41,850 nucleotides of DNA from assembly GCA_903921785.1 (NCBI GenBank), contig CAIXRH010000235.1:1-41850 (forward strand). The letters run 5' to 3'. The notes under the pieces are model-generated. The model was not told the origin of the DNA. It saw nothing but the letters and a program-made list of their open reading frames with translations, and searched no databases. Source of the DNA: an uncultured Pseudomonadota bacterium. GTDB lineage: Bacteria; Myxococcota_A; UBA796; SXON01. This document shows positions 125 to 36,529 of the stretch, one piece after another (position 1 is the first letter of the stretch; each line of letters opens with the position of its first letter). The translations under genes were made by a program, and so were the position numbers.

Positions 125-2653
125 CTACTTGTAGTAGGCGTGGACGGTCTCGACCGCGAACTCGGAGCCTTCACCATGGCAGACGTCACAGCTCTCGCCG
201 TAGGTCGCGTCGGTGTTGAGCGCCGCGTGGGCCAGCGCGTCGTCGGAGTCGTGGCAGGTCGTGCACGCGGCGGCCTGCGGGTCCTTGTAGGACTCGTTGG
301 TGCCGTGGCACGCGTCGCACGCCGCCACCCCGCCGTCGAAGCGCGGGAAGGTGACGTCGAACGGGGTGCCGGTGCTGCCGATCTTGAAGCCCTTGTCGAG
401 GCTGTCGGAGTAGTGGATCTTGTGGATCATCGACTTGAAGTCGAGGGTCGCGTAGTCGCCGTCCTCGGTGTAGCCGCCCATCATGCCCGGGGTGTGGCAC
501 GCGATGCAGTAGCTCGCCTCGATGCGGCTGCCGCCGTGGAACTCGAGCTTGTTGTGGCACTCCTCGCAGGTTCCCTCGTCGATCACGTCGTGCGGATCGA
601 GCGTGACGCCCGAGCCGATCGTGACGTCCATGTACGCGGTGTCCGTGTCGCGGTAGCGAGTGGCACCGGTGGCGCAGGTGGTGTCGTCCCACATGGCCGT
701 GTACATGTCGACGTGCACCCGGTAGGTGCCCGCCTCGAACGCCTGGCCGTACAGGTCACCGAACGGCACGCCGATGAGGGTCGTGCTGCTGTCGCCGCTC
801 TGCAGCGGGTAGGTGGCCGGGATGGCCGTGCCGGTCGCGGAGCCCGCGGTGGCCGCGAGGGTGTAGGTCCAGATGCCGGTCGCGGTATCGACGGTCGAAG
901 AACCGTAGACCGAGCCGACGATCGTGGAGCTGCCCGCGGACGCCGAGTACATGACCCGCTGCATGTGGTCGGACGGACCGGCCAGGATGACCGTACCGGA
1001 GCCGGCAACCGTCGGGCACGTGGACGACGTGCTGCTGTACTTGAAGAACGACTGCGGGATCGGGGTGCCGTCGTCGTAGAGCACGGAGAACTTGACGGTC
1101 AGCGTGTCGCCGATGTCGAGGGTGGTGGAGCCGGTCTGGTCCGTCACGCTCAGCACGGTCACGTTGACGCCCGTCTTGCCCGCCGCGTGGCCGGCCGCGG
1201 TCCAGGTCGCGGTCGTGTCGCGCGGGTCCATGTGGACCTCTTCCGGCCCGCCGCCCATGCCGCCGTCGTAGTGGCAGAGGGTGCAGTTGGCGTCGGAGGT
1301 CTGCTTGCCGCCGGTGTGGTTGGTGCCGGCCGCCCAGACGATGCTGTCGTGGCAGGCGCCGCACGCCTGACGGGTGGGCTCGGTGTAGTTCGTGCCGTCG
1401 CCGCCTTCGTGGCACTGCGCGCAGTCGGCCGGGCCGCCCGGGAAGCTCGGGAACTCGACCTCACCGAAGTCGTTGAGCGCGTAGGAGGCCGAGCCGCCGT
1501 ACCCGGCCACGATGTAGCCGTTGGTGAGCTCGGCGCCCATGTGCACCTTGTGGATCATCTCGGTCATCCCGACGGAGATGCCCGGGGTGACGGTGGAGTC
1601 GGTGGCGGAGTAGCGGTCCTCGGCGCCGTCCACGTGGCAGGTGAGGCAGAGCTCGAGCTTCTGGCGGCTGCCGCCGTGCATGCGGAAGCCGGCGTCGCCG
1701 TGGCAGCCCTGGCAGTTCTCTTCCACGACCACGTTGCGGGTGGTCTCGGTGGTGGCCGAGCCGAAGAGCACGTGCGCGATGTCGTTGTCGGCATCGGGGT
1801 AGGTCGTGCCGTCGGTGTCGGTCACGGTGAGGTAGGCGACGCCGCCCACGAAGTAGGTGCCGTCGATCTCGTTGATGCCATCGCCGTCGATGTCGCTGGA
1901 CATCGAGAGCCCGCCCCAGTCGCCCCAGTCCTCATCGAGGGCCGTGGTGTCGTTCGGCACCGCGTGGAACGTCGAGGGAATCGGCGTGGAGAAGGTGTAG
2001 GTGTAGGTGCCGTCGTAGTTGTCGACCGAGGTCGTACGCACGTTGGTGATCTGGTTGTAGTAGATCACGATCTGGGGGTGCGTCGTCGGACCGGTGACGT
2101 TGAAGTAGACGTTGCTGAGGTCGGCGAGGTCGTACTCGACGCCGTCGTCGTCTTCCACGCTGAAGGTCACGATCGGGTAGTCGCCGGGCTCGAGCTGACC
2201 GGCCGAGCCGGAGCCGCCTTCCACGGAGAGGATGCTGAGGTTGACGCCCCAGGGCCCGGTGCTGCCGTTGTGGCCGTCCTTGCCGTCGTGGCCATCGGCG
2301 CCGTCCTGGCCGTCGATGCCGTCCACGCCATCCCGGCCGTCCTGGCCGTTGATGCCGTCGATGCCGTTGGTGCCGTCGGTGCCGTCCTGGCCGTTGATGC
2401 CATCGACGCCGTCCTGGCCGTTGATGCCATCGACGCCGTTCTGGCCATCGGCGCCATCCTGGCCATCGATGCCGTCCTTGCCATCAGCGCCGTCCTTGCC
2501 GTCGGTGCCGTTCTGGCCATCGACGCCGTTCTGGCCCGCAGGCCCTTCAGATCCATCGACGCCGTCCCGGCCGTCGGTGCCGTTCGCGCCTTCACAGGCC
2601 ACGAACAGGATGGACATCGCGATCAGCCCCTTGGTGAGACTCAGGGAATTCAT
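125..2653 (-). CDS. OmcA/MtrC-type decaheme c-type cytochrome lipoprotein with collagen-like stalk
   Basis: 842 residues. The start is fixed by GAGGAG eight bases upstream of the ATG at 2653; an in-frame start 57 bases further upstream would bury the signal peptide. A lipoprotein signal (SILFVAC, Cys20) is followed directly by about 37 Gly-X-Y triplets (residues 22-132), then a beta-rich domain. Five CXXCH motifs follow (about residues 314-461), then a second beta domain, then five more (about 696-826). This is the two-pentaheme plan of the OmcA/MtrC family, whose members reduce extracellular metals, electrodes or soluble shuttles at the outer surface. The collagen-like insert is unusual for the family and could hold the haem domain away from the membrane. 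The gene has its own candidate sigma-54 promoter and sits 349 bases beyond the main cytochrome operon. The family call is strong; the electron acceptor is unknown. Confidence 0.9.
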   Translation of the reverse strand: MNSLSLTKGLIAMSILFVACEGANGTDGRDGVDGSEGPAGQNGVDGQNGTDGKDGADGKDGIDGQDGADGQNGVDGINGQDGVDGINGQDGTDGTNGIDGINGQDGRDGVDGIDGQDGADGHDGKDGHNGSTGPWGVNLSILSVEGGSGSAGQLEPGDYPIVTFSVEDDDGVEYDLADLSNVYFNVTGPTTHPQIVIYYNQITNVRTTSVDNYDGTYTYTFSTPIPSTFHAVPNDTTALDEDWGDWGGLSMSSDIDGDGINEIDGTYFVGGVAYLTVTDTDGTTYPDADNDIAHVLFGSATTETTRNVVVEENCQGCHGDAGFRMHGGSRQKLELCLTCHVDGAEDRYSATDSTVTPGISVGMTEMIHKVHMGAELTNGYIVAGYGGSASYALNDFGEVEFPSFPGGPADCAQCHEGGDGTNYTEPTRQACGACHDSIVWAAGTNHTGGKQTSDANCTLCHYDGGMGGGPEEVHMDPRDTTATWTAAGHAAGKTGVNVTVLSVTDQTGSTTLDIGDTLTVKFSVLYDDGTPIPQSFFKYSSTSSTCPTVAGSGTVILAGPSDHMQRVMYSASAGSSTIVGSVYGSSTVDTATGIWTYTLAATAGSATGTAIPATYPLQSGDSSTTLIGVPFGDLYGQAFEAGTYRVHVDMYTAMWDDTTCATGATRYRDTDTAYMDVTIGSGVTLDPHDVIDEGTCEECHNKLEFHGGSRIEASYCIACHTPGMMGGYTEDGDYATLDFKSMIHKIHYSDSLDKGFKIGSTGTPFDVTFPRFDGGVAACDACHGTNESYKDPQAAACTTCHDSDDALAHAALNTDATYGESCDVCHGEGSEFAVETVHAYYK
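2258..2590 (-). repeat. Collagen-like Gly-X-Y coding tract (decaheme cytochrome at 125)
   Basis: About 37 consecutive Gly-X-Y triplets, mostly GxD and GxN with few prolines (GQD, GVD, GIN, GTD). At DNA level it is a degenerate 9-base-periodic tract. Low proline suggests any trimer is stabilised by charge, as in other bacterial collagen-like proteins; this is inference. Confidence 0.85.
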
Positions 2654-2710: not shown

Positions 2711-2738
2711 GTCACGGAAAGTCAGAGAGACTCGTGAC
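2711..2738. promoter_or_regulatory. Dyad upstream of the sigma-54 promoter
   Basis: GTCACG and CGTGAC form an inverted repeat separated by 16 bases, centred about 50 bases upstream of the predicted start. Overlapping shorter repeats (AGTC-N5-GACT) lie inside it. It could be an operator; no regulator is identified. Confidence 0.3.
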
Positions 2739-2742
2739 TTGT

Positions 2743-2764
2743 GGGGGGCCCCCCGAAAGGGGGG
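2743..2764. other. G6-C6-GAAA-G6 switchable hairpin
   Basis: Six G, six C, GAAA and six G follow each other. The C run can pair with the following G run across a GAAA loop, or form the G6C6 palindrome with the preceding one, so the two structures exclude each other. It lies upstream of the predicted start of the decaheme gene, so it would act on read-through RNA or at DNA level. Confidence 0.35.
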
Positions 2765-2773
2765 TGGTGAAAA

Positions 2774-2791
2774 TCACACCTCAGGGTGTGA
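2774..2791 (-). terminator. Candidate terminator of the cytochrome operon, or enhancer site
   Basis: TCACACC and GGTGTGA pair across a four-base loop, and on the minus strand TTTTC follows at once, as in an intrinsic terminator for the operon ending at 3003. The same spot is about 108 bases upstream of the sigma-54 start of the decaheme gene, where an activator would bind. The rest of the gap 2792-3002 shows no gene and no other clear signal. Confidence 0.4.
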
Positions 2792-3002
2792 CAAAGCGCC
2801 CTAGGCGGTCAAAGTGGCGAGTTGGTGGAGAGGAAAGCTCGATCCAAGGCTTTCGCGATCTCAGGCGACTCGTGCACGGCCTATTCGCGGGGCCGGAGCC
2901 GCCTGTCACCGTTCGGTCTGCGTCCGTGACGCGACAAGACGAACGTCGTCAACGGTCTCCGGGGCGCACCCCACACCCGGGGCGCGGCCAGCCGGGGGCG
3001 GC

Positions 3003-3323
3003 TCAGTCGGCGGTGTCGGCGGTGTCGAGCAGGTCGGCCCAGTCGGCTACGCCGTTGGTGCCGTGGCATTCCGCACAGGCGGTGGTGTTCTGGCCCACCA
3101 GCTCGTCGTTGATCGCGGAGCCGTCGACCGCCACGCCGTCCACACAGTCTTCCTTGTGGATGCGGCTGAGCTGGTGGCACTGGAAACACTCCGTGCGCCC
3201 CCAGCCGGCGGGATGCTCCTGCTCCGTGACCACGAGGCCAGACGGAGAGAGGCGGAGGTCGCGCGCGGCGCCGCAGGGTGCGTCCGCGCAGCCGGCCAAC
3301 AGCACCAGGAGGAGGGCGATCAT
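3003..3323 (-). CDS. Small diheme c-type cytochrome lipoprotein
   Basis: 106 residues. The ATG at 3323 overlaps the stop of the upstream heptaheme gene (ATGA) and has GGGAGGA six bases before it. A very short lipoprotein signal, MIALLLVLLAGC, ends at lipid Cys12 and has no basic residue. Two haem motifs, CFQCH and CAECH, lie in the middle and near the C-terminus, and the protein ends in an acidic DTADTAD tail. I do not recognise a named family. As the last gene of the overlapping series it is probably a minor outer-membrane-anchored electron carrier of the same conduit. Confidence 0.8.
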   Translation of the reverse strand: MIALLLVLLAGCADAPCGAARDLRLSPSGLVVTEQEHPAGWGRTECFQCHQLSRIHKEDCVDGVAVDGSAINDELVGQNTTACAECHGTNGVADWADLLDTADTAD

Positions 3324-3922
3324 GGCGTCCTCCCGTAGCCGGCGGACGAAGCGTGGCAGGTGGTGCACTCGGCCTGCACGTGGCAGGTGTCGCACGAGTT
3401 GGCGGAGGCGCGCGCGGCGATGCCGTGGACGCTGAGCCACGAAGCATCATGGACCCGCTTGCTGGCGTCGTCCCGCCGATCGTGGCAGTCGGCGCACCAC
3501 TTCCGCTCGTGGCAGTTGCGGCAGGTCGCGGCGTTGCCCTCGGCGTCCATCCCGTGGAAGACCGGCCAGTCGGGGCCGTGGGTGGGCGGCGCCTTCACGT
3601 TGGCGTGGCAGGTGTCGCAGCGCTTCGGTGCCATCGGGTAGCTGGCGCCTTCGCCGAGTCCGCCCTGGCCAGGCGCGTGGCACTGGTGGCAGGAGGCGCG
3701 CGGGGGCATCAGCCAGGCGTCGGCGAGCTGGTCGCCGGTGGTGTCGGACGGGCCCGAACCGCCGACCTCGTGGCACGCGAGGCACGTGAGCTTGCTCGGC
3801 CCGAACGTGGAGGCGTGGGCCTTGTGCTCGAACTTCTTGAAGATCGCGTCCTTCTCCCCGCCGTCGGCTGCGAACGCGGCCGAGGTGAGCAGGAGCATGA
3901 ACAGCGTGAGAGGACGGCTCAC
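3320..3922 (-). CDS. Periplasmic heptaheme c-type cytochrome
   Basis: 200 residues with a GTG start whose GTGA overlaps the stop of the upstream barrel gene. A Sec signal peptide (SRPLTLFMLLLTSAAFA) appears cleaved before Ala-Asp. There is no lipobox, so a soluble periplasmic form is likely. Seven CXXCH motifs follow: CLACH, CHQCH, CDTCH, CRNCH, CADCH, CDTCH and CTTCH, with further histidines as possible distal ligands. In porin-cytochrome conduits a periplasmic multiheme protein plugs the barrel from inside; the position next to the barrel gene suggests that role. Sequence alone does not assign it to MtrA/OmaB families, which usually carry more haems. Confidence 0.85.
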   Translation of the reverse strand: MSRPLTLFMLLLTSAAFAADGGEKDAIFKKFEHKAHASTFGPSKLTCLACHEVGGSGPSDTTGDQLADAWLMPPRASCHQCHAPGQGGLGEGASYPMAPKRCDTCHANVKAPPTHGPDWPVFHGMDAEGNAATCRNCHERKWCADCHDRRDDASKRVHDASWLSVHGIAARASANSCDTCHVQAECTTCHASSAGYGRTP

Positions 3923-5115
3923 GGGACCCCCACCCGGACCTGCAGCCAGGCCCGAGGGTCGACATCATGGAGCGCGTCGTGGGCGACCTCGAGGCCGAGG
4001 GTGCCCGTGATCTTCTTGGTCGGCGCGACGCTGGCGGTGGCGCCGAGGGCCACCAGCGTGTCCCAATCTTCGTGGGCCGCATGGTACGGCGCCAGGGTGC
4101 CGATGAGGTGGCCTTGGACCACGCTCGGGAGCGGGACAGTCACGTCGGCGGTGACCGCGTGGTAGGCGCCGCCGGGGCCGCTCGCGGCGTTCCAGCTCGG
4201 GGTGAGGCACCAGGACTGGGCCTTGCACCGGGGCAACCACATCGCCTTGCCGCTCCAGCCGACCTCCCGGTACTCGGGATCGGCGGCGTCGGTGGCGAAG
4301 GACTGCGCGCTGCCCTCCACCCAGAGGCGGGAGGTGTTGGCCGCGCTCCAGCCGAACCCGGCGCCCACCTCGTCGTAGCCGAGGGGATCGAGCGTGGCGA
4401 GGATGAGCGGCGCCATCGCCGACGTCTGGTTGAGGGCCTCTCGGTGTTCGCCCCAGAGCATCAATTTGGTGCCGGCGATCGGCCGGGCGCTGAGCGCCAC
4501 GCGACCCTTCTCCAGGGCGAGGTTGCCGTCGGTGTCGACCCCGCCGTCGAGCAGCAGGTCTGCCCGGGGCTGGAACTTCGACTTCTCGTCGGCGACCTTG
4601 AGCTGCAGGTCGGGGTGGACGGCGGCGGTCTCCCCGAACTCGCCCAACGCGCCGAACGTGGCGCGGACCGGACCGGCCATCACCGTGGCGTCGAGCCGAG
4701 CGACCGGCACGCCGTCGAGCCAGGAGCCGAGCCCGACGTGCTCCGCCTGACCGGCCCACGCCTCCACCGTGACGGCGTGGGAGGGCGTCCATGCGAATCG
4801 ACCCCCATCGAGCATCCACCCTGCGGAGGGGAGGTTCAGGCGTTGGCGGCCGAGGGTCCAGTTGAAGGACTCCTGTTCGCCATCGACGCTGAGCACGAAG
4901 AGCTCCCACGCCGCGGGCTGATCGAAGCCGCTGGGGAAGTTCGCGGTGCCGTAGGCTTCGTAGCGCAGGGCCGGCGCGCCGCCTTCGAACCAGAGGTTCT
5001 CCCAACCGGCGACATAGGGGGTGCCCGCGGCGTCGGTTCGCGCCTGCACGATGGTGTTCGACTCACCGGCGTAGGTCGCGGCGTAGGCCGGGAGCGCCAG
5101 GAGGAGGAGGATCAT
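3919..5115 (-). CDS. Putative outer-membrane beta-barrel of the cytochrome conduit
   Basis: 398 residues and the only protein of the operon without any CXXCH apart from the 47-residue peptide. A short signal (MILLLLALPAYA) is followed by alternating polar and aromatic stretches rich in Trp, Tyr and Gly, such as NLWFEGG, ELFVLSV and LWGEHREAL, typical of beta-barrels. It sits between genes for a multiheme lipoprotein and a periplasmic heptaheme protein, as MtrB-like porins do in porin-cytochrome loci. It lacks an obvious MtrB CXXC motif and does not end in Phe. The ATG at 5115 overlaps the preceding stop and has GGGGTGG before it. A GTG at 5145 would add a basic n-region (RRLLPRGGA) and remains possible. 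Barrel nature is inferred from composition and context. Confidence 0.6.
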   Translation of the reverse strand: MILLLLALPAYAATYAGESNTIVQARTDAAGTPYVAGWENLWFEGGAPALRYEAYGTANFPSGFDQPAAWELFVLSVDGEQESFNWTLGRQRLNLPSAGWMLDGGRFAWTPSHAVTVEAWAGQAEHVGLGSWLDGVPVARLDATVMAGPVRATFGALGEFGETAAVHPDLQLKVADEKSKFQPRADLLLDGGVDTDGNLALEKGRVALSARPIAGTKLMLWGEHREALNQTSAMAPLILATLDPLGYDEVGAGFGWSAANTSRLWVEGSAQSFATDAADPEYREVGWSGKAMWLPRCKAQSWCLTPSWNAASGPGGAYHAVTADVTVPLPSVVQGHLIGTLAPYHAAHEDWDTLVALGATASVAPTKKITGTLGLEVAHDALHDVDPRAWLQVRVGVP

Positions 5116-5891
5116 GGCGCCACCCCGTGGCAGGAGCCGCCGCACGAGGCGACGATCGGGAAGGCCGCGAAGCCCGCCTCATGGCATCCCGAGCAGACCT
5201 GCTCGCCGAGCTTGGACACGGTGGCGAAGTGGGTCGTCGCCCAGTCGGCCGGGTGCGGGTAGCTGGAGTGGCAGGTGCGGCAGGTCACGCCGGTGTTTCC
5301 GCCGGAGGTGCCGCCATCCCCGTGGCAGAGCCAGCACTCGGTGCGGTCGGTGACGGCGCCGTGCTTCTCGGGTGTGCCCCAGTCGGCCGGGTGCGGGTAG
5401 CCGGCGTGGCACTTGGTGCAGGACGGGGCGTCGCCGTTGCCCTCGAGGTTGGCCCCGTGGCAGTTGGTGCAGGCGCCGGTGCCGCCGCGGGCGAGGGCGT
5501 ACACCCCGTGGTTCCCTGCTTCCTTCCAGCCTTCTGGGTGGGGCCAGCTCGCGTGGCAGCTGGTGCAGCTCGGGGCCTGGAGCCCCTCCGTGCCGTGGCA
5601 CTTCGTGCACGCTTCGCGGGCCGCGGGGCCGGCCTCACCGGTGAGGTGTTTGCCGTGCTCCTCCCCCGCCAACCAGCCGGTCGGGTGGGGGTAGGCGTCG
5701 TGGCACGACGAGCAGAGCGGGGCGGTCGCACCCTGGCGATGGCAGCCGAGGCAGGCCTCCTGGCCGTACTTCAGCGACTCCGCCCCGTGGGCGGTCGGCT
5801 CCTTGTACTTCTCGGCGTGAGGGAACGGCACGCCGCTGTCGGCGTTGTCGCCGGACGACGCGCAGCCGAGGAGGAAGAGGAGGACGCTCAC
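5112..5891 (-). CDS. Multiheme lipoprotein with CXXCH-YPHP repeats (9 CXXCH plus one CXXXCH)
   Basis: 259 residues, GTG start overlapping the previous stop (GTGA). The signal VSVLLFLLGC is short, lacks basic residues and gives lipid Cys10. Nine CXXCH motifs run through the chain. Four of them stand in a repeated unit of the form CXXCH-x-x-(Y/W)-PHP-x-x-W (CSSCH...YPHPTGW, CTSCH...WPHPEGW, CTKCH...YPHPADW, CRTCH...YPHPADW). The C-terminus carries a tenth site with an extra residue, CGGSCH, a CX3CH spacing. The regular spacing predicts an extended, wire-like haem array. It is probably anchored in the outer membrane beside the barrel. I do not recognise a named family. Confidence 0.85.
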   Translation of the reverse strand: MSVLLFLLGCASSGDNADSGVPFPHAEKYKEPTAHGAESLKYGQEACLGCHRQGATAPLCSSCHDAYPHPTGWLAGEEHGKHLTGEAGPAAREACTKCHGTEGLQAPSCTSCHASWPHPEGWKEAGNHGVYALARGGTGACTNCHGANLEGNGDAPSCTKCHAGYPHPADWGTPEKHGAVTDRTECWLCHGDGGTSGGNTGVTCRTCHSSYPHPADWATTHFATVSKLGEQVCSGCHEAGFAAFPIVASCGGSCHGVAP

Positions 5892-7903
5892 GGGAACATC
5901 CCGGTGTACGCGGCGTCGAGCAGCTCGTGGGTGGAGCGCTGGGTCATGTCGCCCGTAGGGCCAGGGAAGTGCCCGTTGAACAGCCAGTCGTTCCACGCGT
6001 GGCACTCCTGGCAGCCGTTGGGCTGGAACTGCCCGGCGTGCAGCGTGTCGGTGCCCGCGGTGGTGAAGTCCGCCAGCGTGGCCGACGGCGGCACGATCGC
6101 GAAGCGGTGGGAGGCGAGGTCGCCCGCGCCGGTGCGGTCGTCCCAGTCGAGCTCGGCGGCGCTGCTCGGCATGTGGCAGCCCACACACCGATCTTCCTGC
6201 ACGAGCTGATCGGGCAGGTAGAGGGGGTGTTTTGCGTGGGCCACCGCGGCGTCGGCGGAGCCGGTGAAGGTGAGCACCGTGTGGCAGCCGAGGCAGAGCG
6301 TGTTGTCCTCGGTGGACTGCCGCATGTCGGCCTTGTAGCCGCCGCCGTGGGAGCTGTGGCAGTCCGCGCAGCGCGACTCCCAGCCGAGCGTATAGTGCCC
6401 CGAGCGCTGCAGCTCGTCGGCCTGGGCGTGCGCGACCTTCGCGGCGTCGTTCGCCCAGCCTTCGTAGGTGGTGGTGCCGTAGTCGCTCGCCACGTCGCCC
6501 GGCTTGAAGACGCCGTGGGTGTCGTCCCAGGCGAAGGGGGTGCCGGCGTTGCCCGCCCGGGAACCGTGACAGCGCCCGCAGACGTCGTTGGCCCGGCCGG
6601 TGTCGAGGTGCGAGGGGTCGGTGATCGTGGTGACGTCGTCGGGGTTGGCCACGTGCTCGGAGCCCGCGCCGTGGCAGGCTTCGCAGCCGACGCCGGCTTC
6701 GTCCCACCGGGCGGTGGTGTCGGTGACGCCGTGCATGTTCACCGCGTCGCCCGCTTCTTCGAGGGTGTAGCCGGTGGCGTGGCACGCGAAGCAGCTCGCT
6801 TCGGCGGAGAGGGCCGGGTCCGGGGCGGTGACGTAGGCGAGCTCGCCGGCGCCGTCGAGCCAACCGGTGCTGTCGCGGGCGATCCAGCCGCCGTCCTTGA
6901 ACCCCACCTGCTCGGGGTCGGGCGCGACCCAGGCGATCGGGAGCGGAAACGCGCGACCGTCGCGGTCTGCCCAGGGGACGGCCCCGCGCGCTTCGCCGCC
7001 GAGGAAGCCCGAGACCGGCCAGGAATCGGTGGCGCCGCCGGGAGTGGTGAGGGTGACGGTGGGTTGCCCGGCGTCCATCCACAGCGTCGCGGTGGCGCCG
7101 TTGATCTCCACGATCTCGCCTCTGCCGAAGGCCTCCGCGGGGGCGCCGGTGACCGAGGTGAGCGCGTTGGCGTGAGCGGTCGCCGAGAAGTCCGTGGACT
7201 CGTCGGCGTGGCAGCTGAGGCAGGCCGCAGAGCCGGTGAACACCGCGCTCGCGCCGGGGAGCCCGGCGAGGGAGGCGGCAACGTCGACCCCGCCGGTGTC
7301 GGGGACAGGGACGTTCGTGGCGGTGTAGCTGGTGAGTCGGCCGGTGGGGTCGGTCACCGCCACCTCGACGGTGAGCCCGCCCAGCCCGCCGACCACGGCG
7401 AGGCCCGTGCTGTCCGTGGTGCCGGAGACGGTGGTCGTGCCGTCGGTGGCCTCCACGAGGGCGCCCTCGACCGGCGAGCCGTCGGGCCCGGCCACGTGCG
7501 CCCGGACGACGCCCTGCGTCGGGGTGGCCGCGAGGAGGGTCACCTCGGTCTGGAGCGTGGAGCCCGCGGCGATCGGTCCGGCGGTGGCGGTCTGCGTCGC
7601 GTAGCCCACGGCCGCGACGGTGATCGTGTAGTCGGCGGGGCGGAGGCGGGCGATCGACCAGTGGCCGGCGGCGTCCGTCGTCGCCTCGACGCCGGCGGGG
7701 GCGGCGACGACATGGGCGCCCGCGACGGGCGCGCCCGCTTCGTCGACCACGTTGCCCTCCAGCGCGCCGGCCGGCGTGCGCTCCACGGCGGTGTCGCCCA
7801 GATCGTCCGTGCCCGGCCAGTCACGCACCTCGCAGCCGGTCGTCACGCCCGCGAGGAGGGCGACGGCCAGGGAGACGGGGAGGGAGAGGAGCGGGGAGCG
7901 CAT
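5888..7903 (-). CDS. Octaheme lipoprotein with two Ig-like domains and a cytochrome c554-like region
   Basis: 671 residues from the ATG at 7903. A lipoprotein-like signal ends GVTTGC (Cys24; the -3 Thr makes the lipobox weak). Two carboxypeptidase-regulatory-like beta domains follow, about residues 45-125 and 125-195, each with the pattern G-x-V-x-D-x-x-G-x-P-V-x-G-A. Eight CXXCH motifs run from about residue 228 to 635. The stretch VGCEACHGAGSEH matches the signature of the cytochrome c554 group, which includes ammonia-, nitrite- and tetrathionate-active octahemes. No catalytic Lys-type CXXCK site is visible, so electron transfer is more likely than catalysis. It is 82 bases downstream of the proximal decaheme gene, a gap holding a sigma-54-like site. 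Confidence 0.85.
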   Translation of the reverse strand: MRSPLLSLPVSLAVALLAGVTTGCEVRDWPGTDDLGDTAVERTPAGALEGNVVDEAGAPVAGAHVVAAPAGVEATTDAAGHWSIARLRPADYTITVAAVGYATQTATAGPIAAGSTLQTEVTLLAATPTQGVVRAHVAGPDGSPVEGALVEATDGTTTVSGTTDSTGLAVVGGLGGLTVEVAVTDPTGRLTSYTATNVPVPDTGGVDVAASLAGLPGASAVFTGSAACLSCHADESTDFSATAHANALTSVTGAPAEAFGRGEIVEINGATATLWMDAGQPTVTLTTPGGATDSWPVSGFLGGEARGAVPWADRDGRAFPLPIAWVAPDPEQVGFKDGGWIARDSTGWLDGAGELAYVTAPDPALSAEASCFACHATGYTLEEAGDAVNMHGVTDTTARWDEAGVGCEACHGAGSEHVANPDDVTTITDPSHLDTGRANDVCGRCHGSRAGNAGTPFAWDDTHGVFKPGDVASDYGTTTYEGWANDAAKVAHAQADELQRSGHYTLGWESRCADCHSSHGGGYKADMRQSTEDNTLCLGCHTVLTFTGSADAAVAHAKHPLYLPDQLVQEDRCVGCHMPSSAAELDWDDRTGAGDLASHRFAIVPPSATLADFTTAGTDTLHAGQFQPNGCQECHAWNDWLFNGHFPGPTGDMTQRSTHELLDAAYTGMFP

Positions 7904-7928
7904 GGACCAGCGGGAGCGAGCGGGGAGG

Positions 7929-7950
7929 GGTCCGGAGCAAGTTCCGGACC
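7929..7950. other. Hairpin in the gap between octaheme and decaheme genes
   Basis: GGTCCGGA and TCCGGACC pair perfectly (8 bp) around a six-base loop. There is no T run on the minus strand, so simple termination is unlikely. It overlaps the sigma-54-like element and could be an RNA processing or attenuation stem in the operon message. Confidence 0.4.
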
Positions 7951-7951
7951 A
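7936..7951 (-). promoter_or_regulatory. Possible internal sigma-54 promoter for the octaheme-to-diheme genes
   Basis: The minus strand reads TGGTCCGGAACTTGCT, two mismatches from TGGCACG-N4-TTGCW with the essential GG and GC correctly spaced. The predicted start near 7925 leaves a 22-base leader, the same length as for the other decaheme gene. It is weaker than the sites at 2686 and 14821. Confidence 0.4.
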
Positions 7952-7985
7952 GGGTTCGGGGAGGAGGGGGATCGGCCGCACCGGC

Positions 7986-10355
7986 CTACTCGGCCCAGGC
8001 GTGGACGTCGGCGATGTCCCAGTCGCGGGCCTCGCCGTGGCAGACGTCGCAGGCTTCGCCCCACGTCTCGTCGGTGTTGATCGCGGCGTGGGCTTCAGCG
8101 TCGGTGCTGTCGTGGCACGTCATGCAGCCGCGGTGCGAGGCGCTGCGCCAGGTCTCGCCGTCGTGGCAGGCATCGCAGGCGAGGGTGCCGCCGTCGAAGC
8201 GCGGGAACGCCACGGTGAAGCAGGTGTCGCCCGCATCGCCGGTGACGCAGTAGCTGCCTGACGCGGAGCCGTGGATGCGGTGGATGAGGTTCGGGAGGTC
8301 CACCGAGGCGTCGGTGCCGGACTGATCCGACGAAGCCGCCGTGTGGCAGGACAGGCAGCTGTCGAGCCCGCGGGCCGAGCGGTCGTGGTACTCCAGCGTG
8401 GTGTGGCAGCCCTCGCAGGCGTCCTGGGTGACGATGTCCCGAGGCTCCACGGTGGTGGCGCCCCCCAGGAGGATGTCCTCGCTGGCGCTGGTCGCCACGT
8501 TCCACGCGGTGCAGGTACCGGAGGGATCGTCCCACAGCGTGGTGTAGAGGTCGAGCACCAGACGGTAGGTTCCCGCGGGGAGATCCTGGCCGGTCCAGTT
8601 GTCGTAGCCGAGGTCGGCGCTCCCATTGAGCTGCTCAGGCACCGTGCTCGGGATGGTCGCGGTGGCGCCGGCCGAGGTGGTGAAGGTGTAGCTGTAGGTG
8701 CCGGAGGCCGAGTCGTAGGTGGAGGCGGCGGCGACCGAGCCGGTCGTGCCGGACGAGCCCGGGTCCGCCGAAGCGAGGATCCGCTCCATGTGGTCGGTCG
8801 GACCGACGATCGCCGCGGTGGCGCCGCCCGAGACCCGGCTGCACGTGCTCGCCGTGGAAGAGTACGCCCAGAGCGTGCTGGGAGCGGCGGTGCCGTCGTC
8901 GTAGGTGACGGTGTAGGTGACCGTGACGCTGTCCCCAACCGCAAAGGCCGTGGCGCCATCCTGGTTGGTGACCGACACGATCGCGACGTTGAGCCCTTTG
9001 TTCAGGGTGGCGCTGTCGCGCGGGTCGCCGTGCGCGGTCTTGGTCGGCCAGCCGATCGTGCCGGAGTGACACACGTCGCAAGAGTCGTCGTTCGCCTGGG
9101 AGCCGCCCAGGTGGTAGTCGCTGGCGGTCTTGGACTTCTGGGTGAAGCTGATGCCGTCGTGGCACGAGCCGCAGGCGTACCGGGACGGGGTGGCCTGCAC
9201 GTCGCCCGAAGCGGCGCTGCCGTGGCATGCATCGCAGTTCGCGGCCGCCATCGGCCAGCTCGGGAAGACCACGTCGGAGTAGTCGTAGAGGTTGTAGTCG
9301 GGGTATCCGGTGGCCGTGCTGTCGGTCGCCTCGCCCGCGAGCTCCAACGGGTTGGTGCTGTGCTGGGCGTCGTGCAGCTTGTGCACCATGTACATCATCC
9401 CCACGCTCTCGCCGGGGGTGACGGTCGAGTCGACGTCGGAGTACAGGTCTTCGGCGCCGGCCACGTGGCAGGTGAGGCAGGTGGCGAAGCTGCGGAACTT
9501 CCCGCCGTGGGCCCTGAAGCTGTCGCCGTGGCAGGAGGCGCAGTCTTCGGCCGAGGCGATGTCCCGCGTGTCGTACGTGGTGACGGAGCCGACGAGCACG
9601 TCCTCCGTGGCGTCGTCCGCCTCGGCCCAGGCGTTGCCGTCCACGTCCATCTGGTCGATCCAGGCCCAGGCGGCGAGGGTGTACGTGCCCTCGTCGAGCG
9701 GGAGGCCGCCGTAGTCGCCGTCCGCCTCACCGAGGTCGGACGTGTCGTTCGGCACGGCGTGGTACGCCGAAGGAACGGGCATGTTGAAGGCGAAGGTGTA
9801 GCTGCCGTCGCCGTTGTCGTCGGCGGTGCCGGTGACCGAGGAGAGGTCGGCGTTGTCGATCGCGATCTGGTAGTGGTTCACCGGGCCCGCGAGCTGGAAG
9901 CCCACGCCGTCGAGCTCGTCGAGGCTGTAGAAGTAGCCGTCGTCGTCCACCACGGTGAACGTGATCTCTGGCCGGTCGCCAACCTGGAACTGTCCACCAG
10001 CGCCCGTGGCCCCTGCGATCGTGAGCAGCTCGAGGTGCACGCCCCACGGGCCGTCTCCCTCGTGGGTGCCGTTGGCGATGGAGCCGTCCTTGCCGTCCTG
10101 CCCGTCGGTCCCGTTGTACCCGTCGATCCCGTTGGTCCCGTCGTTTCCGTCGCTGCCGTCGGCGCCGTTGGAGCCGTCGACCCCGTCCTTGCCATCCTGG
10201 CCGTCTTGACCGTCCTGGCCATCCTGCCCGTCGTGCCCGTCTTCACCGGTGACGCCGTTGATGCCGTTGACGCCATCGGCGCCACGTGGACCGGTACACG
10301 CCGAGAGGGCGAGGAGGGGACCGGTGGCCAGCGTGAGGAGGGTCCAGCGGCTCAT
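7986..10355 (-). CDS. OmcA/MtrC-type decaheme cytochrome lipoprotein with collagen-like stalk (operon copy)
   Basis: 789 residues. The ATG at 10355 has GGAG seven bases upstream; the longer open frame above it runs into the hexaheme gene. The lipobox LSAC gives lipid Cys20. About 24 Gly-X-Y triplets follow (residues 22-93, mostly GxD), then a beta domain aligned with the same part of the decaheme protein at 125 (PWGV..., then HAVPNDTSDL against HAVPNDTTAL). Ten CXXCH motifs are split five and five around a central beta domain. It is a paralogue of the distal decaheme gene with a shorter stalk. By family it is a cell-surface terminal reductase. Two stalk lengths on one surface suggest two heights or two partners; this is inference. 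Confidence 0.9.
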   Translation of the reverse strand: MSRWTLLTLATGPLLALSACTGPRGADGVNGINGVTGEDGHDGQDGQDGQDGQDGKDGVDGSNGADGSDGNDGTNGIDGYNGTDGQDGKDGSIANGTHEGDGPWGVHLELLTIAGATGAGGQFQVGDRPEITFTVVDDDGYFYSLDELDGVGFQLAGPVNHYQIAIDNADLSSVTGTADDNGDGSYTFAFNMPVPSAYHAVPNDTSDLGEADGDYGGLPLDEGTYTLAAWAWIDQMDVDGNAWAEADDATEDVLVGSVTTYDTRDIASAEDCASCHGDSFRAHGGKFRSFATCLTCHVAGAEDLYSDVDSTVTPGESVGMMYMVHKLHDAQHSTNPLELAGEATDSTATGYPDYNLYDYSDVVFPSWPMAAANCDACHGSAASGDVQATPSRYACGSCHDGISFTQKSKTASDYHLGGSQANDDSCDVCHSGTIGWPTKTAHGDPRDSATLNKGLNVAIVSVTNQDGATAFAVGDSVTVTYTVTYDDGTAAPSTLWAYSSTASTCSRVSGGATAAIVGPTDHMERILASADPGSSGTTGSVAAASTYDSASGTYSYTFTTSAGATATIPSTVPEQLNGSADLGYDNWTGQDLPAGTYRLVLDLYTTLWDDPSGTCTAWNVATSASEDILLGGATTVEPRDIVTQDACEGCHTTLEYHDRSARGLDSCLSCHTAASSDQSGTDASVDLPNLIHRIHGSASGSYCVTGDAGDTCFTVAFPRFDGGTLACDACHDGETWRSASHRGCMTCHDSTDAEAHAAINTDETWGEACDVCHGEARDWDIADVHAWAE
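10077..10292 (-). repeat. Collagen-like Gly-X-Y coding tract (decaheme cytochrome at 7986)
   Basis: About 24 Gly-X-Y triplets, including a run of four GQD, dominated by Asp and Asn and lacking proline after the first triplet. It is the shorter counterpart of the tract at 2258-2590 and lies at the same place in the protein, just after the lipid Cys. Confidence 0.85.
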
Positions 10356-10401
10356 GGGATGCTCCGAACGACGAAAGGGTAGCTTGGGGGAGCGCGCATC
10401 G

Positions 10402-11205
10402 TCACTCCCCGCTCGGCGATACTGCCGCGGGCTTGACCGCGGGGGCCTCGCCCTGGGCGTTTGCGGTTCCTTCGAACCCACGGGCGTGGCAGTCGAGGCA
10501 TTCGAGGTTGCGACCGCTCTCATCCTTGGGGCGGATGCCCTCGTGGCAGACTTCGCACTCTTCGGAGACCGCCACGAAGCGGTGCACGTTGAGACGGCTC
10601 CCGCCGTGGCAGTCGAGGCAGACCACGAAACGATCGGGATCGGTCTCCCGATGTTCTTCCACCTCGCCGGTGCCGCCCTTGTAGGCGCTGGGCTTGCGGG
10701 TCTTGGCGTGGAGGTGCGCCTTGTGCAGGGGCGAGTTGTCCACCTTCGGCACCAGCGCGCGGAGCTCGGCGGTCATCGGGCCGGTGAGGGGCTCTTCTTC
10801 CCCCTCCGAGATGTGGCACTGCTCGCACACGACCATCGCCACCTCGGCGAGGGGGATGTCCTCGGGCTTCTTCGGCGTGTCGAACAAGGTGACGACGAGG
10901 TTGAGCGGATAGTGGCGGATCGCGACGCGGTGGCAGTCGTGGCACGTGGTGAGCTTGCCGTGGACCGAGGCCGCCCAGCGCTCGTTCGCGTAGTCGTGCA
11001 CGTGGCAGTCGTCGCAGAACCGGGGGTCGCGCCACATGTACATGTACATCTGGTCGCCCGCCGGCACGCCGGCTGCCCCGCCCGCGGCGCCGGACAGGAC
11101 CACCATGACCAGGATCACGGGGTGGGCAAACAACCAGACACGGGTGTCCTTGAGCCAGGCGAGGAGCCGGACGACGGGCGCGGAGGTGAGCAGCTTGCGG
11201 AGCAC
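10402..11205 (-). CDS. Membrane-anchored hexaheme NapC/NirT-like cytochrome
   Basis: 267 residues from a GTG at 11205, one base after the stop of the 47-residue peptide; the longer frame has no plausible signal. One uncleaved membrane segment at about residues 24-46 is followed by CDDCH at 64-68 and CHDCH at 88-92, separated by a stretch with SVHGKL. This resembles the first half of NapC/NirT/NrfH quinol dehydrogenases. Four more motifs follow: CEQCH, CLDCH, CEVCH and CLDCH. NapC-like proteins take electrons from menaquinol and pass them to periplasmic cytochromes. This is the only inner-membrane haem protein in the locus and so the likely entry point for electrons. Confidence 0.75.
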   Translation of the reverse strand: MLRKLLTSAPVVRLLAWLKDTRVWLFAHPVILVMVVLSGAAGGAAGVPAGDQMYMYMWRDPRFCDDCHVHDYANERWAASVHGKLTTCHDCHRVAIRHYPLNLVVTLFDTPKKPEDIPLAEVAMVVCEQCHISEGEEEPLTGPMTAELRALVPKVDNSPLHKAHLHAKTRKPSAYKGGTGEVEEHRETDPDRFVVCLDCHGGSRLNVHRFVAVSEECEVCHEGIRPKDESGRNLECLDCHARGFEGTANAQGEAPAVKPAAVSPSGE

Positions 11206-11206
11206 G

Positions 11207-11350
11207 TCAGATCCCCGCGTGATGGTAGGCGGAGACGAGGAAGTGGCCTTGGCCCCAGCCCATCGCGACGCCGAAGAAGCCAAGGGCGAATGCAAGCAGG
11301 ATCAGACCGACCGCACGCCGCCAGGGGCTCGGGGTAGGGGTGGTGGTCAT
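11207..11350 (-). CDS. 47-residue single-pass membrane peptide
   Basis: A small open frame between the 15-haem lipoprotein and the hexaheme protein. Its ATG overlaps the upstream stop (ATGA) and its stop is one base before the next GTG, so it is tightly coupled on both sides. It starts MTTTPTPSPWRRAVGL, then has one hydrophobic helix (LILLAFALGFFGVAMGWG, about residues 16-33), and ends near a His pair (SAYHHAGI). The RR before the helix predicts N-in topology and an outside His-His. It may be a small subunit of the quinol-oxidising complex with the hexaheme protein. No homologue is recognised, but coupling and composition support a real gene. Confidence 0.6.
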   Translation of the reverse strand: MTTTPTPSPWRRAVGLILLAFALGFFGVAMGWGQGHFLVSAYHHAGI

Positions 11351-13869
11351 TCCTTCTTCTCGCTGAGGTCAGTGCGGCGATCAGGCTTGTGGAAGTACTG
11401 GTAGAAGACCAGGGTGTCGTCGCCGTGGCAGGCGCCGCACGCCTCCTTCCACGGAGCGGCCTTACGGAGGTGGGTGCCGCCGCCCGCCTCAGGGCCGTGC
11501 ACGGAGTGGCAGGTCTGGCAGGAGACCTCGCCATTCTGCCCGCTAGCCACCGGCTTGCCCACCTTGTCGAACAGGGTGAGGCCGGCCAGCGGCGTCCACC
11601 GCGACCCGTCGGGGAGGAACATCGGCGCCGGGTGCGTCCATGCCGCGAGCTTCGGCGCGTCAGGGTTCTTGGTCCCCGGGGCGTGGCAGGCGAGGCACCG
11701 CTGGGTGGCCGGATTGTCGTTGGTGCTGGCCATCGCCGGCTTGTTGTGGGCGGGGTGGCAGTCCAGACAGCTCGCGACGCCGTGGCCGCCCGCTTCGGCG
11801 AGCTTGCCCTGCTCGGCGTGGCAGGAGCGGCAGTCCTTCGAGGTCGGCTTGTTCGCCGCGTGCGGGTCGTGGCAGGCGAGGCAGGTGAGCGCGGTGCCGG
11901 CTTTGCCCGTCTTGGCGGAGATGTCGCGGCCGTCCACCGGGTGGCCGGCCTTGCCTGGGGTGACGCCGGCGCGTGCGCCGCGGCCGCCGGGTCCGTGGCA
12001 GGACAAGCATCCGCGGGGATCGCCGTCGGTGCCCGGCCCGAGGATGAGGAAGGTGTTCTTCCGTTCCCCGCCGTGGATGTCGTGGCAGTTGATGCAGGTG
12101 GGCTTGCCGTTCTTGGACAGCGTGGCGTGGGGGCTGCCGTTGAGGTCCTTCCGCTCGGAGTGACAGTCGAGGCAGATGGGGCGACCGGCCGGGAGGGTGC
12201 GCAAGAGCGTGACCGCGCGGCTCCCGGTGAGGTCGTGGCAGCTCAGACAGCCCACGCCGCCGTCCTTGGAGAGCACCACGTGGCCGGCGTTCGCGGCCGC
12301 GGTGAGGTCCTTGCCCGGCACTCGGCCGAGGACGTGGTTGTGCGAGGTGTCGGACTTTGCGGTGTGGCAGCCGAGGCAAGCCTTGCCGTCGCCTGGATCG
12401 CGGAGGATGTGGTCCCCGGTCGCGCCGTGCATCGAGTGACAGCTCATGCAGCTCGCCTTGGTGGGCTCGCTGGGATCGGCGGTGCCGCGCTTGGCGCGGG
12501 CTTGGAGCGCGGCGGTGAGGCCGGCGCCGGTCGGATGGCCGGTCTTGTCGGCGTCGACCGCCGCGACGCCGCTGCTGACGTGCTTGTCGGAGACGTGGCA
12601 GGCGAGACAGAACGCGTCGCCGTCCTTGCTGATGCGGGTGAAGGGAGACTCGTCGCTGTGGTGGCGGACGAGGAGCTCGGTGTCGCCCCCCGCTGCCGAC
12701 GGCTCCACCACGCCGTGAGGCGAGTGGCACGTGGAGCAGACCAGCTTCCCGTCCTTGTCGAGCGGGAAGAGCTTGGGGATGTCCATCGTGGGGGCGATGT
12801 CCCGCGGGTGGTGCTTCCGTGCGGGGTCCCAGCCTTCGCGGCTGTCGTTGACGAGGCCGTCGTGGCATTGGAGGCAGTTGTCGCCTTCGTCGCCGGACGG
12901 GTCGGCTTCGGATGACACCAGCTCGTAACGGACCAGGGTGTGCGGGGGCGCGACCGGCAGCGTCGCGGGGACCTTGAGCAGGTGCAACTTGGCCGGGGTG
13001 GTCTCGAGCACCGCCAGGATCGAAGCGTCGGTGACCGAGGTGCGGACCGCCAGGGGATGCGCGAACCGAAGCACCTTCCCGGACTCGGCGACCGCGCCGA
13101 TGAACTCACCGTCGTACTGGTACGCCTGCACCACGCCGAGCACGGAGTCGGCGACCCAGAGGCCCCCCTCCGCCGCCTGTACGGCGGTCGGTCGGGCCAT
13201 CGCGCCGACGTGGAGGCCCTGGCGCCCGAAGTCGTCGGCCAGCTTCCCGGAAGCATCCAGGCGGAGGATCGCGGGTCGAAGTGCGTCTACCAGGAGGAGC
13301 TCCCCCGCGACGCGCGCGGGCTCGAGGTCCACCCCGCGACGAACGGCGTGCTTCTCTTCAGCTTCCGCCAGGACGCGGGTGGCCTTCCCCGTGGCCTTGT
13401 CCAGCCACGAGACGGCGCCGAAGCGGTCTGCGACCACAAGGGCGTCCCCGCTCTCGATGACAGCCACCGGGTGAAGCGCCGCGCCTTCGGCGTTCTCGGG
13501 GAGCAACGTCTGATCGACGACGCCCTCGGCCGTGAGGTGCAGGACTTGACCGAGCTCGTCGGCCTGGCCGGGCACCGTGGCCCAGAGGCCGCCGTCGGCG
13601 GCGTTGCTCAAGCGGATGGCGCGCGGGAGGCCGGTCGCGATCGCTGCGGCGGGCGACTTTCCGTCGGCCGCCACGCTCCACAGCTTGCCGGCGTACCCGT
13701 CGAGCACGAGGAAGCCACCGTCCGGGCGCGCCACTACGTCGGTCGGGATGACCGCTTGGAGCTCGATACTGCCGATCTCTTCTGCCGCGAGGAGCGAGGG
13801 CTGGGTGCTGCCGACGCTGCTACCTGGGTTGGCGCAGCCGGCGAGGAGGTGGAAGAAGGCGAAGATCAC
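11347..13869 (-). CDS. Beta-propeller (NHL-like) lipoprotein fused to a 15-haem cytochrome domain
   Basis: 840 residues, GTG start overlapping the upstream stop. The short signal IFAFFHLLAGC gives lipid Cys12. Residues about 30-320 contain repeats of the type PTDVVARPDGGFLVLDG and PTAVQAAEGGLWVADS, characteristic of NHL/SMP-30-like propeller blades. From about residue 332 to 815 there are 15 CXXCH motifs, many in paired units with downstream histidines (for example SCHSMHG, NCHDIHG, TCHSVHG), as in doubled-CXXCH domains. It has the largest haem content in the window and could span much of the periplasm or extend from the outer membrane. NHL-cytochrome fusions are known in Geobacter-type genomes; a precise family is not assigned. 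Confidence 0.85.
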   Translation of the reverse strand: MIFAFFHLLAGCANPGSSVGSTQPSLLAAEEIGSIELQAVIPTDVVARPDGGFLVLDGYAGKLWSVAADGKSPAAAIATGLPRAIRLSNAADGGLWATVPGQADELGQVLHLTAEGVVDQTLLPENAEGAALHPVAVIESGDALVVADRFGAVSWLDKATGKATRVLAEAEEKHAVRRGVDLEPARVAGELLLVDALRPAILRLDASGKLADDFGRQGLHVGAMARPTAVQAAEGGLWVADSVLGVVQAYQYDGEFIGAVAESGKVLRFAHPLAVRTSVTDASILAVLETTPAKLHLLKVPATLPVAPPHTLVRYELVSSEADPSGDEGDNCLQCHDGLVNDSREGWDPARKHHPRDIAPTMDIPKLFPLDKDGKLVCSTCHSPHGVVEPSAAGGDTELLVRHHSDESPFTRISKDGDAFCLACHVSDKHVSSGVAAVDADKTGHPTGAGLTAALQARAKRGTADPSEPTKASCMSCHSMHGATGDHILRDPGDGKACLGCHTAKSDTSHNHVLGRVPGKDLTAAANAGHVVLSKDGGVGCLSCHDLTGSRAVTLLRTLPAGRPICLDCHSERKDLNGSPHATLSKNGKPTCINCHDIHGGERKNTFLILGPGTDGDPRGCLSCHGPGGRGARAGVTPGKAGHPVDGRDISAKTGKAGTALTCLACHDPHAANKPTSKDCRSCHAEQGKLAEAGGHGVASCLDCHPAHNKPAMASTNDNPATQRCLACHAPGTKNPDAPKLAAWTHPAPMFLPDGSRWTPLAGLTLFDKVGKPVASGQNGEVSCQTCHSVHGPEAGGGTHLRKAAPWKEACGACHGDDTLVFYQYFHKPDRRTDLSEKKE

Positions 13870-14744
13870 GACGGACCATCCCCATGGCAGGCGCGGCAGA
13901 GGGTGCCGTCATTGACCGGGAGCGCCATCATCGGGTCATCCACCTTGTCCGCCTTCTTCTCGGGGACGGTGAGGCCGGTGGTGCGCAGCCGCTGGATGCT
14001 CTGCGCGAGGGCGCTGGGCTTGGTGGGCTTGGAGCGGCCAAACGTGTGCACGTCGTGACAGGTCCAGCAGTTGATGTCCCCGTCGGGGCCGAGCGGCAGC
14101 GCCTTCGCCGCTTCGGGGGACAACGGATGATCGATCTTGGAGCCGACGTGCTCGCGTGCGCCGGCGTGGACGGCGTCGGGGTGGCAGGTGGTGCACGCCT
14201 GCTTCGGGGCCAGGCGCAAGCTCGCGTTGGCCACCGTGGAGCCCTCGGGCGGGATGGCGGAGTGGCAGACGGCGCAGGTGCCGTCGGCCTTGCCCTTCTC
14301 CGGTGGCTCATGCGGGCTGGTGCGCGCCTTGGAGGTGGACGCATGGCAGCGGTAGCAGAACTCGACCTTCTTCTCGGGTACGCCACCGGTGAGGAAGGGC
14401 GCCGCGGTGGGGCGCTTGTGATCGCAGGACGGGTTGGAATGGCAGGTGGCGCAGCTCACCTTGCCGTTCTCCAGCGGGAAGGTGGACGGCACCTTCACCG
14501 CCACCGGCGCCATCCCGATCGGGTGCATGTCGGCGTCGGGATGGCAGACCTTGCAGGCGGCCTCGATCGGCTTCACGGCGCCCGGTGCGGGCCCGCTCGT
14601 CGCGTCGTGGCAGGCCGGGCAGCCATCGGCGGAGAGGTGAGGCGAGACGCCGAGCCGCTTCGAGCGCGCTAGCCCCTCCTTCGGGGCCAACAATGCCACG
14701 AGGATCACCGCGAGCCCGAGGGCGACGACGCGCAGGGACCTCAT
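13866..14744 (-). CDS. Octaheme c-type cytochrome, first gene of the operon
   Basis: 292 residues. The ATG at 14744 begins a normal Sec signal (MRSLRVVALGLAVILVALLA) likely cleaved after GLA; the longer open frame upstream is arginine-rich shadow. There is no lipobox, so it is probably periplasmic. Eight CXXCH motifs from residue 42 to the C-terminus (CPACH, CKVCH, CATCH, CYRCH, CAVCH, CTTCH, CWTCH, CRACH) alternate with Pro/Lys-rich linkers. Its stop overlaps the start of the 15-haem gene (GTGA). It is the leading gene downstream of the strongest sigma-54-like element in the region. Probable role: periplasmic electron shuttle; no family is named. Confidence 0.85.
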   Translation of the reverse strand: MRSLRVVALGLAVILVALLAPKEGLARSKRLGVSPHLSADGCPACHDATSGPAPGAVKPIEAACKVCHPDADMHPIGMAPVAVKVPSTFPLENGKVSCATCHSNPSCDHKRPTAAPFLTGGVPEKKVEFCYRCHASTSKARTSPHEPPEKGKADGTCAVCHSAIPPEGSTVANASLRLAPKQACTTCHPDAVHAGAREHVGSKIDHPLSPEAAKALPLGPDGDINCWTCHDVHTFGRSKPTKPSALAQSIQRLRTTGLTVPEKKADKVDDPMMALPVNDGTLCRACHGDGPS

Positions 14745-16164: not shown

Positions 16165-16192
16165 GAGTGGGCCTCCGTGGAGAGAGTAGCGC

Positions 16193-16216
16193 GGGGCCGC
16201 AGCGGTCGCTGGCCCC
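16193..16216 (-). other. Strong hairpin between the OB-fold-like and RCC1 genes
   Basis: GGGGCC and GGCCCC pair, and an inner AGCG-GT-CGCT stem stacks beneath with a two-base bulge. It starts eight bases beyond the stop at 16224 and has no T tract, so partial termination or RNA protection are both possible. Confidence 0.35.
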
Positions 16217-16223
16217 CTCCGGC

Positions 16224-16988: not shown

Positions 16989-16998
16989 GGGCGCTGTG

Positions 16999-25737: not shown

Positions 25738-25807
25738 CAGGGGGCTCCCGTTGTGGCGAAGGGTACACCCTGGCGTCCACGGACGCAACGGGGTGTGGGC
25801 CAGCATC

Positions 25808-25822
25808 GGCCGCGTAGCGGCC
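25808..25822. other. GGCCGC-GTA-GCGGCC hairpin downstream of the methyltransferase gene
   Basis: A perfect 6-bp stem with a three-base loop lies about 41 bases past the stop at 25863 and before the MopE-like gene. There is no T tract, so termination is only a possibility. Confidence 0.3.
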
Positions 25823-25862
25823 AACTTGAGCAGGGCCGGCCGGCAGCGACGGCGAGGCGGGC

Positions 25863-32947: not shown

Positions 32948-36498
<3,551 letters not shown>

Positions 36499-36529
36499 CC
36501 GGGCTCCTTGCGTGCGGCAGCGGCCTGGG

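Follow-up and report, generated by a model that had tools for sequence, protein, structure and literature searches.

A series of ten minus-strand genes in the genome of an uncultured bacterium (14744 to 3003 of the window, the whole 41,850-base stretch of DNA analyzed here) probably encodes a complete porin–cytochrome conduit that runs from the inner membrane to the cell surface, occurs in one bacterial class only, and most likely transfers electrons outward. The window is one whole contig of a G+C-rich assembly (7.48 Mb, 362 contigs; 71% G+C in the window). The class is known from metagenome-assembled genomes (MAGs) labeled Deltaproteobacteria, Myxococcota, or Pseudomonadota, several of them apparently from lakes, judging by isolate names. 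If this reading is true, a complete route of extracellular electron transfer is extended to an uncultured class that was not linked to the process in the papers found. The conserved membrane peptide would then provide a testable claim on the construction of the quinol oxidase, and the two-module inheritance described below a testable claim on which cytochrome fills the barrel.

Gene Content and Haem Sites

The series comprises eight haem proteins, a membrane peptide, and a barrel. Together with a further decahaem gene near the contig end, the genes are as follows, with protein locations and lipoprotein assignments as predicted:

A8, 13866–14744, minus strand: periplasmic octahaem cytochrome with a signal peptide and no lipobox; 8 CXXCH
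B15, 11347–13869, minus strand: lipoprotein (lipobox LAGC) with an N-terminal NHL-type beta-propeller and 15 haems
TM, 11207–11350, minus strand: 47-residue single-helix membrane peptide ending in SAYHHAGI
D6, 10402–11205, minus strand: membrane-anchored hexahaem cytochrome, NapC/NirT-like candidate quinol oxidase
E10, 7986–10355, minus strand: OmcA/MtrC-family decahaem lipoprotein (lipobox LSAC) with a collagen-like (GXY) stalk
F8, 5888–7903, minus strand: octahaem lipoprotein with carboxypeptidase-regulatory-like domains
G9, 5112–5891, minus strand: small decahaem lipoprotein (lipobox LLGC) with 9 CXXCH and 1 invariant CX3CH
Barrel, 3919–5115, minus strand: outer-membrane beta-barrel with 22 predicted strands and 0 CXXCH
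I7, 3320–3922, minus strand: periplasmic heptahaem cytochrome with a signal peptide and no lipobox, candidate barrel plug
J2, 3003–3323, minus strand: small dihaem lipoprotein (lipobox LAGC)
K10, 125–2653, minus strand: second OmcA/MtrC-family decahaem lipoprotein with a collagen-like stalk

For E10, F8, and K10, we chose the starts on the basis of signal peptides. The initial annotation had counted 8, 15, 6, 10, 8, 9, 7, and 2 CXXCH motifs in the haem genes from 14744 to 3003, giving 65 in the series and 75 with the gene at 125. A six-frame count reproduced these numbers exactly, with 10 CXXCH in K10 (125–2653). Shuffled versions of the proteins contained a mean of 0.02–0.14 CXXCH each and a maximum of 2 in 500 shuffles, which excludes a chance origin of the counts. 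Nine motifs were also confirmed in the protein described as having nine haems, but its total had to be corrected. All 14 aligned relatives share a tenth haem site of G9, spelled CX3CH (C250-C254-H255), and another site (H190) takes the same spelling in four of them. Ten non-motif histidines are conserved in the 14 aligned sequences, equal to the number of haem sites. The invariant CX3CH and the ten conserved distal histidines thus mark G9 as a decahaem protein of about 250 residues and bring the haem sites to 66 in the series, or 76 when K10 is included.

The claim of mostly 4-base overlaps held at six of nine junctions (A8/B15, B15/TM, F8/G9, G9/barrel, barrel/I7, and I7/J2); after start choice, the remaining three have gaps of 1, about 46, and about 82 bases. 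The membrane peptide and the barrel-like protein reported within the series were likewise recovered, the former as a 47-residue one-helix peptide and the latter as a 22-strand AlphaFold2 model.

Several other features lie on the contig. K10 stops 124 bases short of the contig end. An RCC1-repeat protein is encoded upstream of the cytochrome series (15100–16998, minus strand), and a 915-residue frame at 23761–26508 has no Pfam match. Pyruvate:ferredoxin oxidoreductase is encoded at 32947–36705 on the minus strand, opposite to the plus-strand genes at 36770–41850 for a dihaem protein that weakly matches cytochrome c' and then for complex I-type subunits (20-kDa, 49-kDa, and NADHdh) up to the contig end.

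Conservation Within One Bacterial Class

Relatives of the locus were located by barrel and D6 searches of related genomes and re-scored with profiles of eight components. The same gene set recurs in other genomes: all nine genes of the common set are present in 10 genomes besides the window, from three families (L031–L034, L036–L038, and L043–L045). Partial sets cut by contig ends (L035, L041, L042, L046, L128–L130, and L135) add three more families, and the cluster is rearranged in L039. The common order is F8-G9-barrel-I7-J2-A8-B15-TM-D6, often followed by an OmcA/MtrC-like decahaem gene, and 9 of the 10 complete sets show it. The tenth, L031, belongs to the same genus as the window and places A8-B15-TM-D6 first, as the window does; L032, also of this genus, has the common order. 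The two orders within one genus indicate that the window's arrangement is a derived rearrangement, and gene order alone is therefore a weak argument for an undescribed conduit. The position of E10 after D6 preserves a common neighbor pair. A same-genus genome carries a second A8-like octahaem gene after J2 (L048:9430–10326, 34% identical to A8). An origin of the window order by recent tandem duplication and reciprocal loss was considered and found unsupported, since this second A8 clusters, on long branches, with a distant row.

Identity among relatives falls to 27–40% for the cytochromes and 15–20% for the barrels, and haem counts hardly vary. Over A8, B15, D6, F8, G9, I7, and J2, 56 conserved distal histidines stand against 56 haem sites. 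Near-constant haem counts across such divergent proteins suggest that haem number and ligation, rather than sequence, are under selection.

In the genomes searched, the gene set is restricted to one uncultured bacterial class. The D6 profile matched in 16 of 71 genomes of the class (E ≤ 4e-52); outside it, a 379-genome sample of the phylum gave short, weak matches (E 1e-16 or worse) to generic cytochrome segments. Full-length or long relatives of the barrel were found inside the class only, with fragments elsewhere (E 1e-5 or worse). Absence outside the phylum rests on a GTDB-wide motif scan of 84,980 species, which can miss divergent relatives and gave short CXXCH-level matches but nothing convincing in other phyla. 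Its strong relatives came only from MAGs titled Deltaproteobacteria, Proteobacteria/Pseudomonadota, or Myxococcota and were mostly the same genomes as already found.

Variant clusters were also observed. L131 (G031:C5) and L132 (G047:C188) hold a second, paralogous cluster type, F8-G9-barrel-I7-J2-A8, with J2 and A8 swapped in L131; no D6 was present in the stretch read from either. Smaller relatives take the place of the NHL/15-haem protein in both, as 4- and 12-haem pieces and an 8-haem gene in L132 and as a 6-haem piece in L131. The two cluster forms are united in L033 (G011:C81, 6036–14888), where A8 and a normal B15 are separated by an 8-haem frame of 1117 residues and by B15-like genes with 4 and 12 haems. 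One further copy (L047/L063, G049:C147) has frames broken throughout and is either decayed or badly assembled.

Predicted Inner-Membrane and Periplasmic Components

D6 has 6 CXXCH in 12 of 12 aligned rows and 7 conserved distal histidines. A single N-terminal hydrophobic segment, predicted to span the membrane at residues 21–50, precedes the first haem at C64. The NapC/NirT family (PF03264) scored 22.0, 23.8, and 20.9 bits in three members, just short of the gathering score of 24.1. D6 is a candidate for a NapC/NirT-like quinol oxidase. In each of 15 loci (the window and 14 others), the membrane peptide is encoded between B15 and D6 and ends in H-(A/G/S)-G-hydrophobic. Its helix is predicted at residues 10–34 in the window, and no convincing Pfam relative was found. 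By the positive-inside rule, the conserved C-terminal histidine would face the periplasm.

Of the two cytochromes proposed for the periplasmic path, B15 keeps 15 CXXCH in 14 of 14 aligned rows with 16 conserved distal histidines, and its profile matches NHL propellers (E 2e-34). The 8 haem sites of A8 are kept in 16 aligned rows, one of which has 7 canonical sites and one CX3CH. A8 (13866–14744) has only 6 conserved distal histidines for its 8 haems; the remaining two may be ligated otherwise or be open.

The Barrel and Its Neighbors

A structure prediction in which 3919–5115 is not a barrel had been named beforehand as refuting the conduit. The outcome was a barrel: the AlphaFold2 model, built with 12 relatives, has 22 antiparallel strands (pLDDT 78.5, pTM 0.70). 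Foldseek and VIA-align matched it to OprD-type porins and to the 22-strand barrels of TonB-dependent transporters, with VIA-align Z values of 17–19 against 18- and 22-stranded outer-membrane barrels over 280–355 aligned residues. The plug domain of TonB-dependent transporters is absent from the window barrel. By sequence, the barrel has no Pfam family, no NCBIfam family, and no relative in the PDB. MtrB was not among the best fold matches, which says nothing on kinship.

In nearly all loci, the barrel gene has G9 on one side and I7 on the other, with 4-base overlaps at both junctions in the window, and the I7 gene is translationally coupled to the barrel gene. All 7 haem sites and 7 distal histidines of I7 are conserved in 17 aligned rows. 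J2 keeps both haem sites, 2 distal histidines, and two invariant cysteines (C17 and C60) in 15 rows.

Predicted Surface Cytochromes

E10 and K10 scored 222.5 and 278 bits, respectively, against the OmcA/MtrC profile (TIGR03507, cutoff 209.3), and they alone exceed this cutoff in the genome. E10 also matched PF22113 (9.8e-32) and Collagen. K10 is probably a separate transcript. The 292 bases between J2 and K10 (2711–3002) contain hairpins (TCACACC-CTGA-GGTGTGA and a C6/G6 stem, without a T tail), which are a possible regulatory or boundary element. In L038 and L043–L045, various multihaem genes (5–10 CXXCH) lie upstream of F8, often on the opposite strand; their variety suggests that the core is fixed and the surface cytochromes around it are exchanged.

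All 8 haem sites and 8 distal histidines of F8 are conserved in 10 aligned rows. F8 matched the carboxypeptidase-regulatory-like family PF13620 (6e-20), and profile matches of its haem part were 6i5b (E 2e-20), 6qvm, and cytochrome c554. The AlphaFold2 model of G9, built from 10 sequences, reached a pLDDT of 47. By sequence, all PDB matches of the cytochromes were of a generic multihaem kind.

Two Modules and a Candidate Plug

Pairwise distances were correlated over nine genomes, whose pairs are non-independent. Distances of the barrel, I7, J2, A8, B15, and D6 correlate with one another (0.56–0.85), with rho of 0.72–0.77 among the barrel, I7, and J2. F8 and G9 co-vary strongly with each other (rho 0.81) and weakly with the barrel, I7, and J2 (0.15–0.34). 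In L052 and L061, F8 and G9 are about 9–12 points closer to family f1, and the barrel, I7, and J2 are about 8–13 points closer to family f3, as if the F8–G9 pair had been exchanged as a unit. The two groups thus behave as separately inherited modules. In published Pcc clusters, the porin and the periplasmic cytochrome co-evolve, and surface cytochromes are replaced and do not co-evolve. The distance blocks combined with this pattern lead us to favor I7 as the plug and G9/F8 as an outer relay, an assignment drawn from few genomes.

Proposed Electron Path and Alternative Readings

We propose that the conduit would serve anaerobic respiration, the acceptor outside the cell being, for example, Fe(III)/Mn(IV) oxides, humics, or a partner cell. 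Menaquinol would be oxidized by D6 together with the membrane peptide, whose C-terminal histidine could be a quinol-binding residue or a ligand of the first haem. From there, electrons would cross the periplasm via A8 and the propeller–haem lipoprotein B15 and pass the outer membrane via I7 inside the 22-strand barrel, where J2 would serve as a small linker or cap. On the outer side, they would move through the G9/F8 lipoprotein relay to exchangeable MtrC-like decahaems, E10 and K10, on collagen-like stalks.

The outward direction is favored because of the NapC-like entry, the MtrC-type exit, and the failure to find a RuBisCO large subunit in the genome. Metal reducers are the best-known source of MtrC/OmcA-family surface cytochromes, which also speaks against the reverse flow, in which Fe(II), a mineral, or a partner cell would supply electrons that the same conduit would carry to the quinone pool and on to terminal oxidases. 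Five haem-copper oxidase matches in the genome make oxygen respiration by the host probable, and with it inward flow possible. NapC-type proteins can work both ways (CymA has been proposed as a quinone reductase in Sideroxydans), and the Uet uptake set includes NHL proteins. The contig's genes for pyruvate:ferredoxin oxidoreductase and complex I-like proteins point instead to a heterotroph with anaerobic capacity, and we regard inward flow as unlikely.

Two other readings question what the barrel unit serves. DmsEFAB reduces DMSO outside the cell, and the barrel unit could in the same manner feed F8 as an extracellular enzyme for a specific soluble substrate. Some relatives of the 6i5b, 6qvm, and c554-type proteins that F8 resembles are reductases, and the exchange of F8 and G9 as a module would fit such a role. 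However, a conserved distal histidine for every F8 haem argues against an open catalytic haem, and the series contains no molybdopterin or other catalytic gene, making an enzyme system improbable. Slightly less probable still is that no wire crosses the outer membrane: the cytochromes would store or relay electrons within the periplasm, and the barrel would be a porin or transporter of the ordinary kind, adjacent by chance. The best fold matches of the barrel are indeed general porins and TonB-dependent transporters, as any barrel would give. Chance adjacency is hard to reconcile with a barrel that almost always lies between G9 and I7, overlaps both by 4 bases in the window, is found full-length inside the class only, co-varies with I7 and J2, and has surface MtrC-family cytochromes adjoining.

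Comparison with Known Conduits

The initial annotation had tentatively proposed a porin–cytochrome conduit with four component types that matches no named set, and the barrel fold, the conserved unit, the profile searches, and published compositions support it. An outer-membrane barrel gene beside multihaem cytochromes, the general mark of porin–cytochrome systems, is present. None of the published Mtr/Mto, OmbB-OmaB-OmcB, ExtABCD-L, OetABI, OmcKL, PCC3, PCC4, and Uet sets has the composition of the window. In the open-license literature, no paper was found that ties Myxococcota to a porin–cytochrome conduit of this type. The main text of a 2024 multihaem cytochrome survey of about 60,000 assemblies is without Myxococcota or NHL, and its cluster tables could include the window set.

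The series resembles MtrCAB, MtoAB, and PioAB in combining a barrel with multihaem cytochromes, E10 and K10 being OmcA/MtrC-family decahaem lipoproteins. Those barrels have 26–28 strands (28 predicted for MtrB), whereas the window barrel has 22 and gave no match to the MtrB/PioB profile (TIGR03509) at E up to 0.1; this profile matched nothing in the genome, and control genomes gave no match either. The series has seven further genes beyond these systems and no cytochrome at the MtrA/DmsE level (TIGR03508, cutoff 192.2 bits), the best in the series being B15 with 72.7. On the quinol side, D6 shares with CymA and ImcH an N-terminal helix followed by periplasmic haems and a weak PF03264 match in all three members scored. 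It differs in having 6 haems, compared with 4 in CymA and 7 in ImcH, and one N-terminal helix, compared with three helices in ImcH. Unlike these NapC/NirT quinol dehydrogenases, it is paired with a conserved membrane peptide of 37–49 residues.

Likeness also exists to the Pcc systems of Geobacter and others (OmbB-OmaB-OmcB, ExtABCD/EFG/HIJKL, and OetABI), which combine an 18–22-strand porin with periplasmic and lipoprotein cytochromes in one cluster. Pcc porins are predicted to have 18–22 strands and to lie beside a periplasmic cytochrome of 5–14 haems, and the window has 22 strands next to I7 with 7 haems. In both, outer components are swapped more readily than those of the core. The pcc clusters in the literature contain two to nine genes (OmaB and OmcB, for example, carry 8 and 12 haems), whereas the window series has ten genes with 66 sites and, unlike them, encodes a candidate quinol oxidase and a membrane peptide of its own. 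Anaeromyxobacter has a two-gene pcc cluster, a porin with a 12–14-haem cytochrome, which also differs from the series. PCC3, PCC4, and Uet are likewise large multihaem porin–cytochrome clusters; in Uet, NHL-repeat proteins and a number of small periplasmic cytochromes are further points in common. However, PCC3 and PCC4 include a five-helix b-haem inner-membrane protein that the window series lacks, and PCC3 cytochromes exceed 20 haems, compared with 15 in the largest of the window. None of the undecahaem, tetrahaem, and trihaem cytochromes or the peptidylprolyl isomerase of Uet is in the series. The separation from Ext, Oet, PCC3, PCC4, Uet, and OmbB-OmaB-OmcB is supported at the level of published composition, with porins compared by description.

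A stronger proposal, which we hold as tentative and rather doubtful, is that the locus represents a conduit family of its own, sharing no descent with Mtr or Pcc. In it, the whole quinol-to-surface route would be one inherited unit, the 37–49-residue peptide would give an essential quinol-site or haem-ligand histidine, and the F8–G9 cassette would be exchanged independently of the barrel–plug core. For the system as compared here, we rate the conduit principle as known and the parts list as new and lineage-specific.
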